Part shown: in pieces, positions 7,228-13,417 of the stretch
Numbering within the stretch: position 1 is the stretch's first letter
Layout: every line of letters begins with the position of its first letter
Source: an uncultured bacterium
Lineage (GTDB): Bacteria; Patescibacteriota; Minisyncoccia; Phycocordibacterales; UBA2100
Length of the DNA stretch: 48,088 nucleotides
Reading direction: 5' to 3'
Assembly (NCBI GenBank): GCA_903854215.1
Contig: CAINVT010000025.1
Location: 1-48,088 of the forward strand
Position numbers and translations under genes: made by a program
Notes under the pieces: generated by a model
What the model was told of the DNA's origin: nothing
The model's input: only the letters and a program-made list of their open reading frames with translations
Databases searched by the model: none

Positions 7228-7269
7228 CGCAATAATTATACCGCTATCTCGGACTCTTCAACGGTGTGC

Positions 7270-7285
7270 ATGGTGCCCATGCGCA
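7270..7285. repeat. Copy 1 of the 16-bp dispersed repeat ATGGTGCCCATGCGCA
   Basis: The same 16 bases occur at 9038-9053 and 34277-34292. Here the repeat lies between genes, 42 nt past the NYN start on the upstream side, and forms an imperfect hairpin with gcatgg just before it. Confidence 0.8.
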
Positions 7286-7287
7286 TA

Positions 7288-8325
7288 TCATGGATAGCGC
7301 TGTTCAATAGTCTGATACACGATTTGCGAGATGTCGGCAATCGCCGATTCGAGTCCTAAAATACTGCTACCCTTCGTCATAATGCAGAGCACGTAGGGAT
7401 GGTCCGGATAATATACGATACCGCAATCCTGCAACTCTGCACCGATCTGTTGACCTTGCGCGTTGGGAATACGGGCATCGCCGAATTTCTGTGCGACGAT
7501 GACACCGTTGGGCACGCCCGCTTCGATACCTTTGCTAAAATCGCCTTCCGAGAGCAGTTGTAGAAGTTGCTCCGAATGGTCGCGGTCGAGATACGTAGCG
7601 TTGTAGAGGACGCGCAAAAATAGTGAGTATGATTGCGCCGTTGCATAATCGGGATTGGTAGGACTCGGCTTGACTCCCAGATCAGCAAAGAGCGTCGAGA
7701 GAACCTTGAGCTGACCTATCGCCGATAGATGGTCAGCGAGTAATTGTTCTGCGTTATTATCAGAATATCTGATCATGTGCTCGATAAGCGTTTCGACCGT
7801 ATAGGTGCCGGGTGCCAGTTGTACCGGCGATTCGACTTGTTCATCCGCGTCAAGATCGGGCGTGCCGGAATAATATACCGATTGTGATAGTACCGACGGA
7901 TCTTGTTCTGCAAGACTGTAAAATGCCATCGCCAGCGGGATCTTGGTAAGACTCGCTGGATCATAGAGCGTCGTCGGATTGATATTGAAACCGTCAGAAT
8001 TATTGATATCGCGGAAGCTGACTGAAGCAGTCGCCAGTCTGGCGCTTTGTTGTGCCGCAATGTACGAGGTTATCTTTTGATAGAGCTGCGCGTATTCGAG
8101 TGCCGGATTCACACCGCCCAAACTGACGGTGATCAGCGGGTCCGTAAATGCGTATGCCGAACTCGATGCAAAATCACTTTCCCGCACGGCGTGTACGTTC
8201 GGCTCCGACTGATGCCCCTCCACGATGTACATTACAAGACCGACACCTGCAGCACCGAGCAAGAAACCGATGAGTCCCGCGCGAGTGGATACTGATAGCC
8301 GTCTCCATTGTTTTGTGAAATTCAT
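7288..8325 (-). CDS. Class A beta-lactamase-fold serine hydrolase, membrane-anchored
   Basis: Residues 14-35 form one membrane helix (RAGLIGFLLGAAGVGLVMYIV), placing the rest outside the cell. The active-site series is SLTK (Ser125-Lys128, SxxK), YSDN (Ser188-Asp189-Asn190, the SDN motif) and KFGD (Lys280, the KTG position). The length of 345 residues suits an anchored beta-lactamase2/D-Ala-D-Ala-peptidase-type protein. No ExxLN omega-loop glutamate is recognisable, so efficient beta-lactam hydrolysis is doubtful and a role on peptidoglycan peptides is as likely. The repeat and palindrome family members at 7270 and 8400 flank the gene. Confidence 0.85.
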   Translation of the reverse strand: MNFTKQWRRLSVSTRAGLIGFLLGAAGVGLVMYIVEGHQSEPNVHAVRESDFASSSAYAFTDPLITVSLGGVNPALEYAQLYQKITSYIAAQQSARLATASVSFRDINNSDGFNINPTTLYDPASLTKIPLAMAFYSLAEQDPSVLSQSVYYSGTPDLDADEQVESPVQLAPGTYTVETLIEHMIRYSDNNAEQLLADHLSAIGQLKVLSTLFADLGVKPSPTNPDYATAQSYSLFLRVLYNATYLDRDHSEQLLQLLSEGDFSKGIEAGVPNGVIVAQKFGDARIPNAQGQQIGAELQDCGIVYYPDHPYVLCIMTKGSSILGLESAIADISQIVYQTIEQRYP

Positions 8326-8399
8326 GTGTGATACTGCCCCGCCACTTCAGTATACGGGCGCCACTCACAAATACAAAACCGACGAGCCGTTTGATGGGA

Positions 8400-8422
8400 A
8401 CCGTCATGGTACCCATGACGGT
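8400..8422. repeat. Palindrome related to the ATGGTGCCCATGCGCA family
   Basis: accgtcatgg (8400-8409) and ccatgacggt (8413-8422) pair perfectly around tac. The core catggtacccatg is a variant of the 16-bp repeat family. Confidence 0.7.
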
Positions 8423-8463
8423 CTAACAACATATCCAAAAATGCTGGTATGCGGATGTACGTA

Positions 8464-8540
8464 TGCTACTATATTAATAACCAACCTCCGTAAGGAGGAA
8501 TCGACCGACCGCCCCCGCAAGGGGCGGTTGGGCTTTTAGG
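8464..8540 (+). ncRNA. Candidate ~58-nt small RNA with GNRA hairpin and terminator
   Basis: An extended -10 (TG 8464-8465, TACTAT 8467-8472) predicts a start near 8479. The RNA would begin AACCAACC, then form CCUCC-GUAA-GGAGG (8485-8498), a 5-bp stem closed by a GNRA tetraloop. An 11-bp stem follows (8505-8515 / 8521-8531, one G-U pair, loop cgcaa) running into CUUUU. The stem thus shows both an SD-like GGAGG and an anti-SD-like CCUCC. The leading CCAACC is also complementary to the GGUUGG of the terminator, so two folds may compete. No start codon with a useful frame is present. Confidence 0.5.
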
Positions 8541-8570
8541 CCTCGTTCATAAATGTGGAAGAGCCCTTAG
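8536..8570. repeat. Intact 35-bp element carrying the PemK stop codon
   Basis: The sequence from 8536 to 8570 matches the two halves found at 325-342 and 415-431. On the minus strand it starts with the TAA stop of the PemK gene, so it forms the 3' end of that gene as it does for secA. Confidence 0.75.
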
Positions 8571-8971
8571 AGAAAGCCGTTCATCCGCTTGACTGTTTCC
8601 ATAAGTGCGGTGAATGTACGAGTATCGAGACGTTCGACGCTTCGACTCATCCGTTTGGTGCTGATAATGCGCAGTTGCGTCACGATGACTCGTGAGCGAT
8701 ATCCATATTGTTGCAAGTCAAAATAGAATGGAGTATCTCCCTGTACGCTGGTAAGCGGTGCGATCAGACAAGTGTCGTTGCCGAACACTTTCAGCACAAC
8801 AATGGGACGTTCGAAGTGAGGACCTCCGCCGTCTTGTTCATGTCCGATGTTTATACCCAGATCGGACCACCATACCTCTCGACGTTTTACATGCGTCGTC
8901 TTGCGTTTCTTTTCGATACGCTGCTTTTGTTCGTTCCACTCATCGAACGGTTTTGTTTCATCAACCATCAT
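8567..8971 (-). CDS. PemK/MazF-family toxin-like protein without a neighbouring antitoxin
   Basis: The core KRREVWWSDLGINIGHEQDGGGPHFERPIVVLKVFGNDTCLIAPLT followed by RVIVTQLRIISTKRM is the CcdB/PemK/MazF barrel. By family, such proteins cut mRNA. A charged helix of about 30 residues (DEWNEQKQRIEKKRK) precedes the core. The start at 8971 is chosen because an extended -10 (TGATACGAT) ends 7 nt before it; a longer frame to 9085 would read through a perfect hairpin and gives a His/Ala-rich stretch that looks untranslated. No antitoxin gene adjoins it, unlike the mazEF pair at 25.6-26.2 kb, so it may be an orphan or a tamed regulator. Confidence 0.85.
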   Translation of the reverse strand: MMVDETKPFDEWNEQKQRIEKKRKTTHVKRREVWWSDLGINIGHEQDGGGPHFERPIVVLKVFGNDTCLIAPLTSVQGDTPFYFDLQQYGYRSRVIVTQLRIISTKRMSRSVERLDTRTFTALMETVKRMNGFL

Positions 8972-9021
8972 ACGGGATATCGTATCACGGCTCGCCGGAG
9001 CCTCGACGGTGCATCGGGCAC

Positions 9022-9052
9022 GCGCATGGGCACCATGATGGTGCCCATGCGC
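9022..9052. repeat. 15-bp perfect hairpin built from the dispersed 16-bp repeat
   Basis: Bases 9022-9036 and 9038-9052 are reverse complements around a single g. The right half is copy 2 of ATGGTGCCCATGCGCA (9038-9053). It lies just upstream of the PemK -10 box. Confidence 0.8.
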
Positions 9053-9144: not shown

Positions 9145-12100
9145 TTAGTTCGATCGAGTCTGTGTGATGCCGAATGATGGCAACCCACTGACACCGTAAC
9201 CATTTGTCCAGTCAGACGCCGAGAGGGCCGAACTCGTGAGAGAGTTCGGGGACCAGACGAAGTTGCCTGTGAGAGTGGATGCGGCCATTACTGGAGCGAG
9301 GTCTGTACCATCACCCGTGAGAGCGGTGGTGACATTCCACGACGCATTGCCGCCACTGTAGGTGACCGATGATGCCTTCACGAGGAAGTACCAGGTCGTT
9401 CCTGCAGGAACTTCAAGTGCTGACGCCAGCGGCTTGGTAGTTGTTGACGTTATTCCAGCAGGAATCGCCGCGAGGTCAATCGCGCCATTCGTACCATCCT
9501 TAGTCACCAAACCGTTCAACGTACCACCTGCCGGATTAGAAAATGCTGAATCCGTGTAGGCGTAGAGTTGAGGGTTGGTTACCGTGACTCCAGTACCCGG
9601 ATTGATCGTGAAGCTAAACTTCGCGAGACCAATCGGGTTCTTTGTACCTGCTGTGACGGAAAATGCAATGAGCTTACCGTCAGCAACACCAGTGCTGTTC
9701 AAGGTCGACAGTGCGACCGTCGGTGTACTCGCGAAGATCGCGACACCGGTGGTCGGCATTGTTGCCGAACCTGAATCAACCTGTGTATTGCCGGAAGTAC
9801 CATTGGCATCCGCGAGACCAACCTTGATCTCATGGCCACTGATACCGGACTGACCAGTACCAATCGAGGCGATATCCGCCTTGAGGGTAAGAACAGTCTG
9901 GACATTCTGCGCGATACTGATACCGGAGATCGTCGAGGTCGCGTAGTAGTACGCGCTCGGGGACGTTCCGACCGGTGCCTTACCGTTGAAGTTAGCGGTA
10001 CCAATTTGAGTCGAACCATTCCAGATCGAGACAACGCCGTTGGCGAGGTCAGACGATGAGGCAAAGGTCGAGTTCAACTTGAGACCGATGTTCTGGAGGT
10101 TGACCGAACCGGATGTCGGCTGGAGCGTAAACGTTCCAATCGTCACACCAGTAGTACCACCAGCAACCTGAGCGTACGAGAGAGCAGTCGGAACAGTGGC
10201 CGCCATGGTCGCTGTGCCGAGTGTCATGTTACCCGAGGCGCTTGTTGTCATGTTCGGAGTGATCGTATTACCCGAGACTGCGCCCGTAACCGTCGGAGCA
10301 TAACCCGATGCTGAGCTTACACCCGCATTGAACACGCTGTTGGCCGCGAAGCTACCGCCGATATTGCACTCCAATGACAGAGTCACTGTGGTGCCCTTCG
10401 GGATAGTGAGCGAGTTCGCAAAGATGAAGTTCGCCTCAAGACCAGTCACTCCTGACGGACTTTGTGACCACTGACTCGAACCAATCGCTTGGTTATTCAA
10501 GACTGTGGTGCCGTTGTAGAGCTGACAGTTGGTGAGATTCGATGCCATGATCGCTGCGGTCGTACCGCTGACCAAGTTGACCACAATCGGAAGTGAATTG
10601 ATGCGTACATCTTCACCTGACTGTGAGGCGTCGAGAACGACGTTCGCAAGTACGTAGTTGTTCTGGTTAGCTGTAACGCTCGTCGCTGCCGGCGAAGCCG
10701 AAGCTGAAACGTTGAGCTGGCCGGACTGTACCGTCATGGTACTCATCGTGACCGAACCAACACCAGAGAACGAAACGTACGTGCCCGAGATCTGACCGAC
10801 AGCACCTGGCCACTCCGTAGAACCCGGAGTCGTCGAAAGGGTGTAGGACATACCGTTCGGAGTCACCGAACCATTATCCTGTGTGGATGCGACCGTAGCC
10901 TTGATGGTGTACGTCATCGGTCCAGTCGGGAAGGTGATCGAACTATTGAAGACGACTTTTGCGGTCGTGTCATTTTCATCAACAGGACCAGCAACAACGT
11001 TGCCATTCGAGTCAACGAGCGTGACGTTCTTCAACTGAACACCTGCGGTTGATGAACCAACATCAACTGTAAGGCTGTTGATCGTGACCGGCTCACCAGT
11101 GAAGTTGGTCTGGAAGCCGCCCATGACCTGGTTCGGGGTATTGATCGCGATGTTCTGCGGAGCGACGTTACTCGCCGACGATACCGTCGAGAGCTGACCG
11201 GCCGTGACCGTCATAGTCGAACCCCAGTAGAGCGGATTGCCCACTTGCTCAAAGCCCGAGGTGTTGTTGCTACCAACCGTATACGTACCGTTCGAACCAC
11301 TGTACGCCGGCGCGATGCCGTAGCCGTACGTCTGGCCGACGAGATAGATATCGGATGCGCGGTAGATGTCGAACTCAACGGTGCGGCTGGAAGCCGACGA
11401 ACCGGTGAGATCACCTTGGATATATACATCAACCGAGTTGCCCTTGGTGATCAAGATGCCACCTGGGAACGTCGATGTGTAGTACTTGCCGGAGGCGTCA
11501 ACCGTGACCGCGTAGCTCGTGCCGTTGACAACGGTCTTGAGATTGGCGATGTCAGTCGATCCTGCAGAACCAGTCTGATTCCACGTGATCGAGTAGAGCT
11601 TCTGATCTTCAGCAGAACCCGTAGTGATACGGAGACCGGAGAACGTGAGGCCCGTCGTACCAATCGGTTCAGAACGCTTGCTGTTCGGATCGAATCCTGA
11701 GAGACCGATCGTAGCTTTACCGATCTGGAGAGACTCGTTGATCGTCTGCTGTGCACCCGTGATCGGGAGCGAGCCAGAGACTGCAACGGAGGTGTTGACA
11801 CCAACGACTGCGATGGAGGCGACTTCGCCCGCATTGTTGTTTGTCGTCACCGTCTCCATGTTACCCGCAACCGTGTAGGTCATCGAAGCGCCGGCGGGGA
11901 TGGTGAACGTGCCACCGATCGTCGCCTGATGATTCGAGTTGAAGGTTTGCGAGTTGCCGTACTGGAGTCCGTTGCTGTCGATGAGAATGACTCCCGCGAA
12001 GGCGTTGTCATTCGCAAGACCCGTGCGCTGAACCGTGACACCGTTGATCGTCACTGCAGCCGACGTGTTGTTGGCGATAGTGAAGGTCGTGAACGGTACG

Positions 12101-12690
12101 CGAGTCGCGTTGACCGGAGCGAGCGAGTTGGCAGGCTGGCTACCAGCTGTAACAGTGATACCTGCGCCTGTCGTCGTTGTCGTTCCGCCACCGGTTGTGG
12201 TGGTGGTCGTCGTCGAGCCGGCGCAGAGTGCGTTGGCCTGTGCACGCGTTCCCGCGTACCAGTTACCGTTGCCTGCCGTGAGGCCGACCGGAGTCAAGAT
12301 CGCAGACGCGTAGGCGTTCTGGAAGGCGATGACCGCAGCCTTGGTGGCCGCACCGAAGTAACTTGATTCGTTACCAGGTGAGCCGGCGCCTGTCGCCGCT
12401 ACTGTGAAGCCGTGATTGTTAAGGAATTTTTGGAGCCACAAAACTTGACCACCACTCTTACCCTTTGAGAGGTTCTGAGTGAAGGTGTAGCATCCTGCAG
12501 ATGTCGACGTCGTTGTCGTCGTCGAACCCTGCAAAGATTGGATCTGTGCGAGCAATGCTGCGACCTGTGCTTGAAGAGTGGAAACTGTATCCGCCTTCAC
12601 CGGAGCGGCGAATGCGAATGAGATACCAACCATCAAAGCTACGGCCGTGAGCACTGCTACAACATTCTTTGTTGCTAATGCTTTTACCAT
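9145..12690 (-). CDS. Large S-layer-like surface protein with N-terminal peptidoglycan-binding domain
   Basis: The predicted 1181-residue protein starts with a signal peptide (Lys-rich start, hydrophobic VVAVLTAVALMVGISFAFA, likely cleavage after VKA at residue 33). A short heptad-like stretch (TLQAQVAALLAQIQSLQ) and a Thr linker follow. Residues ~72-155 are a peptidoglycan-binding_1 domain (LSKGKSGGQVLWLQKFLNNHG ... YFGAATKAAVIAFQ), bracketed by Cys67 and Cys156, which could form a disulfide. The remaining ~1000 residues are Thr/Ser/Asn-rich beta repeats with no catalytic motif. The domain order suits the main surface coat of a parcubacterium. ATG 12690 is preferred over GTG 12711 because aaagg lies 12 nt upstream of it and the signal peptide then has a normal start. 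A long untranslated upstream region and a dedicated terminator point to a highly expressed single-gene unit. Confidence 0.85.
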   Translation of the reverse strand: MVKALATKNVVAVLTAVALMVGISFAFAAPVKADTVSTLQAQVAALLAQIQSLQGSTTTTTSTSAGCYTFTQNLSKGKSGGQVLWLQKFLNNHGFTVAATGAGSPGNESSYFGAATKAAVIAFQNAYASAILTPVGLTAGNGNWYAGTRAQANALCAGSTTTTTTTGGGTTTTTGAGITVTAGSQPANSLAPVNATRVPFTTFTIANNTSAAVTINGVTVQRTGLANDNAFAGVILIDSNGLQYGNSQTFNSNHQATIGGTFTIPAGASMTYTVAGNMETVTTNNNAGEVASIAVVGVNTSVAVSGSLPITGAQQTINESLQIGKATIGLSGFDPNSKRSEPIGTTGLTFSGLRITTGSAEDQKLYSITWNQTGSAGSTDIANLKTVVNGTSYAVTVDASGKYYTSTFPGGILITKGNSVDVYIQGDLTGSSASSRTVEFDIYRASDIYLVGQTYGYGIAPAYSGSNGTYTVGSNNTSGFEQVGNPLYWGSTMTVTAGQLSTVSSASNVAPQNIAINTPNQVMGGFQTNFTGEPVTINSLTVDVGSSTAGVQLKNVTLVDSNGNVVAGPVDENDTTAKVVFNSSITFPTGPMTYTIKATVASTQDNGSVTPNGMSYTLSTTPGSTEWPGAVGQISGTYVSFSGVGSVTMSTMTVQSGQLNVSASASPAATSVTANQNNYVLANVVLDASQSGEDVRINSLPIVVNLVSGTTAAIMASNLTNCQLYNGTTVLNNQAIGSSQWSQSPSGVTGLEANFIFANSLTIPKGTTVTLSLECNIGGSFAANSVFNAGVSSASGYAPTVTGAVSGNTITPNMTTSASGNMTLGTATMAATVPTALSYAQVAGGTTGVTIGTFTLQPTSGSVNLQNIGLKLNSTFASSSDLANGVVSIWNGSTQIGTANFNGKAPVGTSPSAYYYATSTISGISIAQNVQTVLTLKADIASIGTGQSGISGHEIKVGLADANGTSGNTQVDSGSATMPTTGVAIFASTPTVALSTLNSTGVADGKLIAFSVTAGTKNPIGLAKFSFTINPGTGVTVTNPQLYAYTDSAFSNPAGGTLNGLVTKDGTNGAIDLAAIPAGITSTTTKPLASALEVPAGTTWYFLVKASSVTYSGGNASWNVTTALTGDGTDLAPVMAASTLTGNFVWSPNSLTSSALSASDWTNGYGVSGLPSFGITQTRSN

Positions 12691-13417
12691 AATTTTTTTT
12701 GACCTTTGCACCCCATAAAAATAAATTTACGGAGCCGCGCGCGCCTTCCTTCGACAAGAATGCGCGATGCGTATGTGTGTCTTCTAATAACTAATTGATA
12801 ACTGAAGACCACTAATAATCGCAAACGTATATCTCGTCTTCGCGCGGATAAAAATGAAAACGATTTCTTCATTTCATTCCTCGCTTGACGTGATACATAT
12901 GCCTACCCAAAACTTGAAGCGCACTTCGGGAGTTCAGGGGTAAGGCGAAACTTGCTAGCCCACCCATAAACGTACGTAGTAATGTACATCTATTACGTGA
13001 GGTTAGCAGTAAGAGGGAAGAGGTCATTCGGCGTTTCATCCGTGTCCGAAAAATCAGTTAGTCAGAAAGCAATACGTGCAAAATATATTGCATGTATCTT
13101 TTTGTTTTCGTGCCCTATGAAAATGTCAAAGATCGCGAAGAACTTTTGCAACACGTTCACCGTCACCCGATGATTAGTACTATCCGTACTGTCCGTATTG
13201 CGCGACACCTCTCTAATGAAAGAGGTATCTCCGCAATTATATACTGGTACCTACCGGATATGATACGTTGCGACTCCCCGCTTTGTGGATAACTTGTGGG
13301 TAAACGTGTGGTAGGAAACCCGCCACATTCGCACACAAGCTCTTGACAGGATACCTGACCCCACCGATAGAGTCAATCAATAGAGAGGCGCCAACTGCCC
13401 GTGCCTTTCCGGCAAAA
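12691..13417. other. 727-bp gene-free stretch upstream of the surface-protein gene
   Basis: No gene is supported. The part next to 12690 should hold the surface-protein promoter and a long leader, but no promoter stands out. A folded segment on the minus strand (around 12910-12935) pairs gaag with cttc and aact with agtt. Two DnaA-box-like 9-mers lie at 13284-13292 and 13295-13303. TTGACA at about 13343 has a poor -10 (gataga) 17 nt downstream. Two reading frames of 63 and 66 residues on the plus strand show no family resemblance. Confidence 0.5.
13284..13303. promoter_or_regulatory. Pair of DnaA-box-like 9-mers
   Basis: tgtggataa (13284-13292) is a perfect match to the inverse of TTATCCACA, and tgtgggtaa (13295-13303) differs at one position. 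They are only 2 nt apart. Two boxes alone do not make an origin, and no dnaA gene or AT-rich unwinding tract adjoins. Confidence 0.4.

Follow-up and report, generated by a model that had tools for sequence, protein, structure and literature searches.

A candidate RNA antitoxin gene convergent with a solo PemK/MazF-like toxin gene in Patescibacteria

RESULTS

A small RNA unit between a serine hydrolase gene and a PemK/MazF-like gene

The window analysed here (the whole 48,088-nt stretch of DNA) carries a unit at 8464–8540 on the plus strand that would encode a small RNA of ~58–60 nt (8479–8537); its fold, a covariance model and a descriptor scan mark it as a divergent member of a family of PemK-convergent RNAs. 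A Beta-lactamase2-type serine hydrolase gene (7288–8325, minus strand) lies on one side and a solo PemK/MazF-like endoribonuclease gene (8567–8971, minus strand) on the other. The unit opens with an extended −10 element, TGcTACTAT (8464–8472), recognised by its sequence and by the family spacing; the hexamer TACTAT (8467–8472) ends 12 nt before hairpin 1, and a recognisable −35 box is absent. Hairpin 1 (8485–8498) is CCUCC-GUAA-GGAGG with a GNRA tetraloop, was found both by folding and in the model match, and its 14-mer occurs once in the 48-kb window. In the linker AAUCGA (8499–8504), the CGA before hairpin 2 recurs in related RNAs. Hairpin 2, with its tail (8505–8537), resembles an intrinsic terminator: 11 bp, a CGCAA loop and then GCUUUU. 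In DNA it reads CCGACCGCCCC-CGCAA-GGGGCGGTTGG at 8505–8531, followed by GCTTTT to 8537.

Folding of the 62-nt RNA 8479–8540 gave a minimum free energy of −33 kcal/mol (z = −3.99) with exactly these two hairpins, and none of 200 shuffled sequences was equally stable. The elements named in the initial annotation (the extended −10, the CCUCC-GUAA-GGAGG hairpin, the 11-bp terminator stem and CUUUU) are all in the sequence, and its main proposal, an autonomous small RNA that brings a promoter and a terminator of its own, is supported. It had also suggested a switch in which a leading CCAACC pairs with GGUUGG and opens the terminator. With this pairing forced, the structure was 10.5 kcal/mol worse (−22.5 versus −33.0 kcal/mol); the switch also lacks conservation, the relatives carrying ACAAAU in place of CCAACC, and we reject it on both grounds.

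A remnant of a MITE-like repeat separates the terminator T-run from the toxin stop codon: an internally deleted copy (TTAGGCCTCGTTCATAAAT...GTGGAAGAGCCCTTAG, 8536–8569), with TTA at both ends, of an element that is ~110 nt when full. The sequence TTAGGCCTCGTTCATAAATG at 8536–8555 corresponds to the end of this repeat, of which the genome has 14 copies. The deleted repeat begins within the T-run, which is short for that reason. The repeat is also present at 325–435 of the window and in L010–L022, with imperfect terminal inverted repeats and a TNA-like target duplication, and related ends occur in other genomes (L003, L007 and L008).

A DNA search of relatives returned two short recurrent pieces, the MITE-like end and the terminator hairpin, and no homology of the whole unit beyond them. 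In other genomes the terminator hairpin lies immediately beyond the 3′ end of PemK genes, on the other strand, which links it to the toxin. The orthologous loci in G033 and G049 have neither the PemK gene nor the RNA, and thus the cassette is lineage-specific. On the far side of the toxin gene, 9145–12711 (minus strand) encodes a large repetitive surface-type protein with a peptidoglycan-binding domain; synteny of its gene end beside the serine hydrolase is conserved in both G033 and G049. Three intergenic palindromes (7265–7290, 8397–8424 and 9019–9052) have a core resembling CATGGKRCCCATG in common, not always with a T-run, and one of them is kept at the orthologous position in L024.

The convergent gene encodes a predicted MazF-fold nuclease

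The partner gene starts at an ATG at 8969–8971 or 8966–8968, stops at a TAA at 8567–8569, and matches Pfam PF02452 (E = 1.4e-11). Its ORF is full length and its catalytic residues are kept. The predicted structure is a MazF fold (pLDDT 84) whose best structural matches are MazF/EndoA (Z about 14; 14.1 to MazF), and a profile search also returned MazF/EndoA (E = 3e-8). Among the residues aligned to the MazF active site, the Arg is invariant in the family and the Thr near-invariant. Family members are ~130 aa long and have an extra N-terminal helix carrying F-D-x-W-N-x-x-K; relatives of the window toxin were found throughout Patescibacteria. NCBIfam and PADLOC gave no match for the four toxins tested. 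ToxN was absent among the structural matches listed, which excludes nothing.

There is no conserved ORF upstream of 105 of these toxins that could be a protein antitoxin. The toxin genes look leaderless, with no −35 and almost no Shine–Dalgarno (SD) sequence; a −10 lies within 4–11 nt of the ATG in 60 of 98 cases, versus 14% at random. The window gene has a putative −10, TACGAT (8979–8984, minus strand), 7 nt before the ATG, so that its mRNA would be leaderless as in the rest of the family.

A family of two-hairpin RNAs at the 3′ flanks of PemK homologues

The recurrent unit, defined from the 3′ flanks of PemK homologues, consists of a sigma70 promoter, a short leader (often UACAAAU), hairpin 1, a short linker containing CGA or CUCG, and a GC-rich hairpin 2. 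The commonest hairpin 1 is GGC-UUCG-GCC or GCC-UUCG-GGC. Type A RNAs have a third, bidirectional terminator hairpin after hairpin 2, spanning the toxin stop codon; type B RNAs have CCGAG before hairpin 2 and a U-run straight after it. Beside distant toxins the sequences differ but the architecture is kept, though not at L242. A promoter with at least 9/12 matches to TTGACA/TATAAT stands at a fixed spacing, its −10 ending 12 nt upstream of hairpin 1, in 62 of 76 RNAs, versus 1.8–1.9% of random positions.

Nearly all loci have one RNA unit; L078 and L165 have two that are separately promoted. At L078 (2600–2850), one PemK gene is accompanied by two tandem RNAs that are nearly identical in hairpin 2 and have separate −10 elements and terminators. 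The leader UACAA (e.g. at L134 and L127), which is absent from some lineages and from the window, is similar to U^ACA, where Bacillus MazF cuts, and hints at substrate mimicry.

The initial annotation suggested a covariance model over relatives; this gave a positive result, with compensating changes in the stems. In the gapless A5 alignment (18 type A RNAs, not fitted to the structure), all cells pair, covariation is 0.278 versus 0.078 in shuffled alignments, and 13 cells are changed on both sides versus 2.8 in shuffles. For 62 type A RNAs aligned with a model, and hence with a bias towards the structure, 100% of cells are paired, covariation is 0.334 versus 0.096 shuffled, and double-sided changes occur in 5 of 8 pairs. 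Type B RNAs gave 0.229 versus 0.118 shuffled.

The same comparison disposes of the earlier idea that hairpin 1 exposes SD-like and anti-SD-like sequence. Among relatives its sequence varies freely with compensation (GGC/GCC, GCC/GGC, GGAC/GUCC, CCGUC/GACGG or ACUCC/GGAGU), so the SD/anti-SD resemblance is a peculiarity of the window copy. The broader suggestion of a regulator of translation or of its own termination found no support, and had overlooked the convergent PemK/MazF-like partner gene.

The window RNA is a diverged copy

A covariance model built from other species' RNAs, the window copy being left out, matched the window RNA over its full length (model positions 1–56) with E = 1e-6 in 401 nt, and the flagged RNA is the best-scoring site of the whole 48-kb window; the score, 19.7 bits, is not above that of ordinary GC-rich terminators elsewhere in the genomes (20–28 bits), and membership therefore also rests on position, spacing and architecture. 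The model R1, derived from A5, fails to recognise the window copy by itself (11.9 bits, partial match). A descriptor scan of 1.9 Mb of strand returned five distinct sites, of which the window RNA is one and each of which adjoins a PemK gene; the descriptor had been drawn up after most of these sites had been seen, and on loci chosen for PemK.

The window RNA has the family layout, lying on the opposite strand just beyond the 3′ end of a PemK/MazF-like gene, and the family architecture of hairpin 1, a short linker with CGA, a GC-rich hairpin 2 and a U-run. With its 5-bp hairpin 1, GNRA loop and linker ending in CGA it belongs to a type B-like subclass, with L078, L120 and L233 as closest relatives. 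Its promoter has 7/12 matches to the sigma70 consensus, which is chance level, with the −10 at the conserved family spacing. The flagged unit is not a chance terminator; it is a diverged family copy whose −35 is weak and whose RNA and toxin genes are separated by the remains of a transposon.

These last two features could also mean that this particular copy is a decaying relic, its RNA unexpressed after promoter erosion and transposon insertion. We regard this as doubtful: both hairpins and the terminator are intact, the extended −10 keeps its conserved spacing, and the toxin ORF is complete with its catalytic residues.

The RNA accompanies the toxin

At one locus after another, R1 picks out a site on the convergent strand immediately beyond the toxin's 3′ end, the best with E = 7e-15. 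Of 110 distinct toxin copies examined, 95 have a model-called RNA; for most of the remaining 15, the window included, visual inspection reveals a promoter and two hairpins, and the others, except L155 and perhaps L091, are truncated or fragmentary toxins. On inspection of the flanks, no RNA was visible at L155, L242 and perhaps L091. In the window's own genome all eight PemK copies have the RNA.

The association was also seen from the side of the RNA. R1 has 28 sites in 52 genomes of the genus, and a PemK gene adjoins 22 of them. A sample of 192 genomes of the phylum contained the toxin in 25; besides the window's own genome, five were R1-positive and all five carry PemK beside the RNA, while R1 sites are absent from all 167 PemK-negative genomes. 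A further model, R2, is too unspecific for genome-wide use alone, since GC-rich terminators score 20–28 bits with it. RNA distance correlates with toxin distance (Mantel rho 0.70, exceeded in 0 of 999 permutations), although vertical co-inheritance of the cassette would give the same correlation, which thus shows a unit and not binding; DNA upstream of the RNA promoter does not track toxin distance (Mantel −0.02).

Loss of the toxin with retention of the RNA is occasional, whilst intact toxins without an RNA are rare. At L165 and L196 the RNAs have outlasted toxins that are deleted or decayed, with only a toxin fragment left at L196, and there are orphan RNAs with intact promoters (L173, L188). 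At L165 (1330–1545) two RNAs, one type A and one type B, lie beside a seven-codon PemK remnant, MHKDFDQ*, which adjoins a RelE-type toxin–antitoxin (TA) pair; the toxin has apparently been lost and the antidotes kept. RNAs without PemK also adjoin RelB/DinJ-like or RelBE-like genes at L177 (1501–1541) and L183 (1501–1547), which may be a coincidence of TA-rich regions or may mean that the RNA serves a different kind of toxin.

DISCUSSION

An RNA antitoxin as the favoured interpretation

We propose, with a probability of roughly 0.6, that the flagged element is an RNA antitoxin gene in an RNA–protein cassette with a convergent solo PemK/MazF-type toxin, and that such cassettes are widespread in Patescibacteria. 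By analogy with type III systems the RNA probably binds the toxin directly. We infer that the RNA is transcribed and that the protein is toxic and is neutralised by it. Most family members have a strong RNA promoter, from which synthesis would be constitutive; the toxin would come from a weak leaderless one, a disparity that suits an excess of antidote. The folded RNA (5′ leader, hairpin 1, CGA-type linker and hairpin 2) would bind the MazF-fold dimer and block its RNA-cutting site; were RNA synthesis to stop, the toxin would be freed and cellular RNA cut. The single-stranded leader may even lie in the substrate groove, a speculative detail given that ACAAAU is conserved neither in all lineages nor in the window.

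The main competitor is a type I-like antisense mechanism, in which base pairing of the RNA to the toxin mRNA 3′ end, via the shared terminator region, blocks expression or triggers decay, as in RatA/txpA and RNA II/fst. The geometry is convergent, the bidirectional terminator of type A spans the toxin stop codon so that the two transcripts would overlap perfectly, and 3′-end overlap is a feature of Gram-positive type I pairs (PMC4147584). Antisense action is possible in type A. As a general account we think it unlikely. Type B RNAs, including that of the window, terminate before the coding region and stop codon, and the second tandem RNA at L078, with its own terminator, is ~170 nt from the toxin. 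Antisense pairing needs no conserved leader, tetraloops or linker, yet these recur across unrelated loci; and the toxins are MazF-fold enzymes of ~130 aa rather than small hydrophobic peptides. The conserved unpaired parts, the early ends of type B RNAs and the position of the L078 RNA clear of the toxin lead us to favour direct inhibition, and the separate promoters of the L078 tandem RNAs suggest action in trans.

Alternatively, the RNA may be a guide, cofactor or substrate of the PemK-like nuclease, directing cleavage or being cut as a sensor or signal, rather than an inhibitor. Tight co-inheritance would be expected here too. The MazF of Bacillus subtilis recognises a U^ACA core, which the leader UACAA resembles; 4mdx is the RNA complex. 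This reading strikes us as distinctly improbable: a variable guide region is not seen, and orphan RNAs that outlive their toxins are a better fit to an antidote, this asymmetry being antidote-like. Finally, an ordinary bidirectional terminator with a chance promoter deserves very little credence, for although shared terminators are common at convergent genes and the window promoter is weak, most family members have a consensus promoter at a fixed distance, a covarying hairpin upstream of the terminator, a conserved unpaired leader and linker, and specificity for one gene family.

Comparison with known TA systems

The layout fits neither type III, classical type I nor type II. With type III systems (ToxIN, CptIN, TenpIN) it shares a small locus without a protein antitoxin, a terminator on the RNA and the proposed inhibition by RNA of a MazF-fold endoribonuclease, the fold being a prediction here. 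However, the type III antitoxin RNA lies upstream in the same operon as the toxin and consists of short tandem repeats that fold into pseudoknots (PMC5086642), whereas the RNA described here is single copy, downstream, convergent and separately promoted; it is predicted, by nested folding only, to form two simple hairpins, and its toxin belongs to PF02452 (PemK). Convergent type I pairs (txpA/RatA, fst/RNA II, bsrG/SR4) likewise combine a toxin gene with a convergent small RNA, with a shared or overlapping terminator as in type A. They differ in that a small hydrophobic peptide is the usual, though not universal, type I toxin, where here it is a nuclease; moreover, the present RNA is conserved in sequence and structure, and type B RNAs stop short of the coding region.

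From type II PemIK/MazEF come the toxin fold, the Pfam family and the active-site Arg and Thr; the differences are the lack of a protein antitoxin gene beside the toxin (105 loci) and the extra N-terminal helix. SymE/SymR also pairs an RNA antitoxin with an RNA-degrading toxin (SymE, ~113 aa), but there translation is blocked by an RNA, SymR, that overlaps symE at its 5′ end (PMC4147584), in contrast to the position of the RNA at the toxin 3′ end here.

At its gathering cut-off, Rfam has no family for the RNA and reported two nearby tRNAs only. Rfam pemK RNA (RF02913) is similar in name and length (61 positions) and, by its name, lies near PemK-type genes. It had no match in the 52 genomes of the genus, a result of unproven sensitivity as 14 control genomes were equally negative, and it was not among the weak Rfam matches to typical family members. 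One such match, BjrC68 on a type B RNA, scored 22 bits, below its cut-off of 39. The family is undescribed in the literature searched; subscription papers and a 2017 survey of 224 candidate RNAs lay outside reach. The two-hairpin family is probably previously unrecognised, though the motif may have been noticed before.

Significance and spread

PemK-type genes without a visible protein antitoxin number up to 8 per 1.1-Mb Patescibacteria genome, and a small structured RNA is offered here as the missing partner for the whole protein family. If true, this would add a third genetic layout for RNA antitoxins to the antisense (type I) and repeat-pseudoknot (type III) layouts, and would explain how reduced genomes tolerate solo RNases. 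The toxin–RNA pair fits on ~600 bp and is directly testable, and the covariance model could annotate hundreds of loci. We consider the odds about even that these cassettes form a new class of RNA–protein TA system, in which a two-hairpin RNA, solitary and with its own promoter, lies convergent with a MazF/PemK nuclease gene and inhibits the enzyme by binding it directly, and that this class is ancestral to much of Patescibacteria and spreading to other phyla.

Candidates for spread outside Patescibacteria come from Methylocystis and from plasmids or phages of Nitratiruptor and Campylobacter. At L112 (2480–2945), on a contig of cultured Methylocystis suflitae NLS-7, a type B RNA and a PemK gene form a complete pair near an integrase-like gene, which reflects either transfer or contamination. 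PemK relatives are also found on Nitratiruptor and Campylobacter plasmids and in Campylobacter phages (L250, L251 and L252); neither covariance model matches there, and the two hairpins on the convergent strand at the toxin 3′ end are suggestive.
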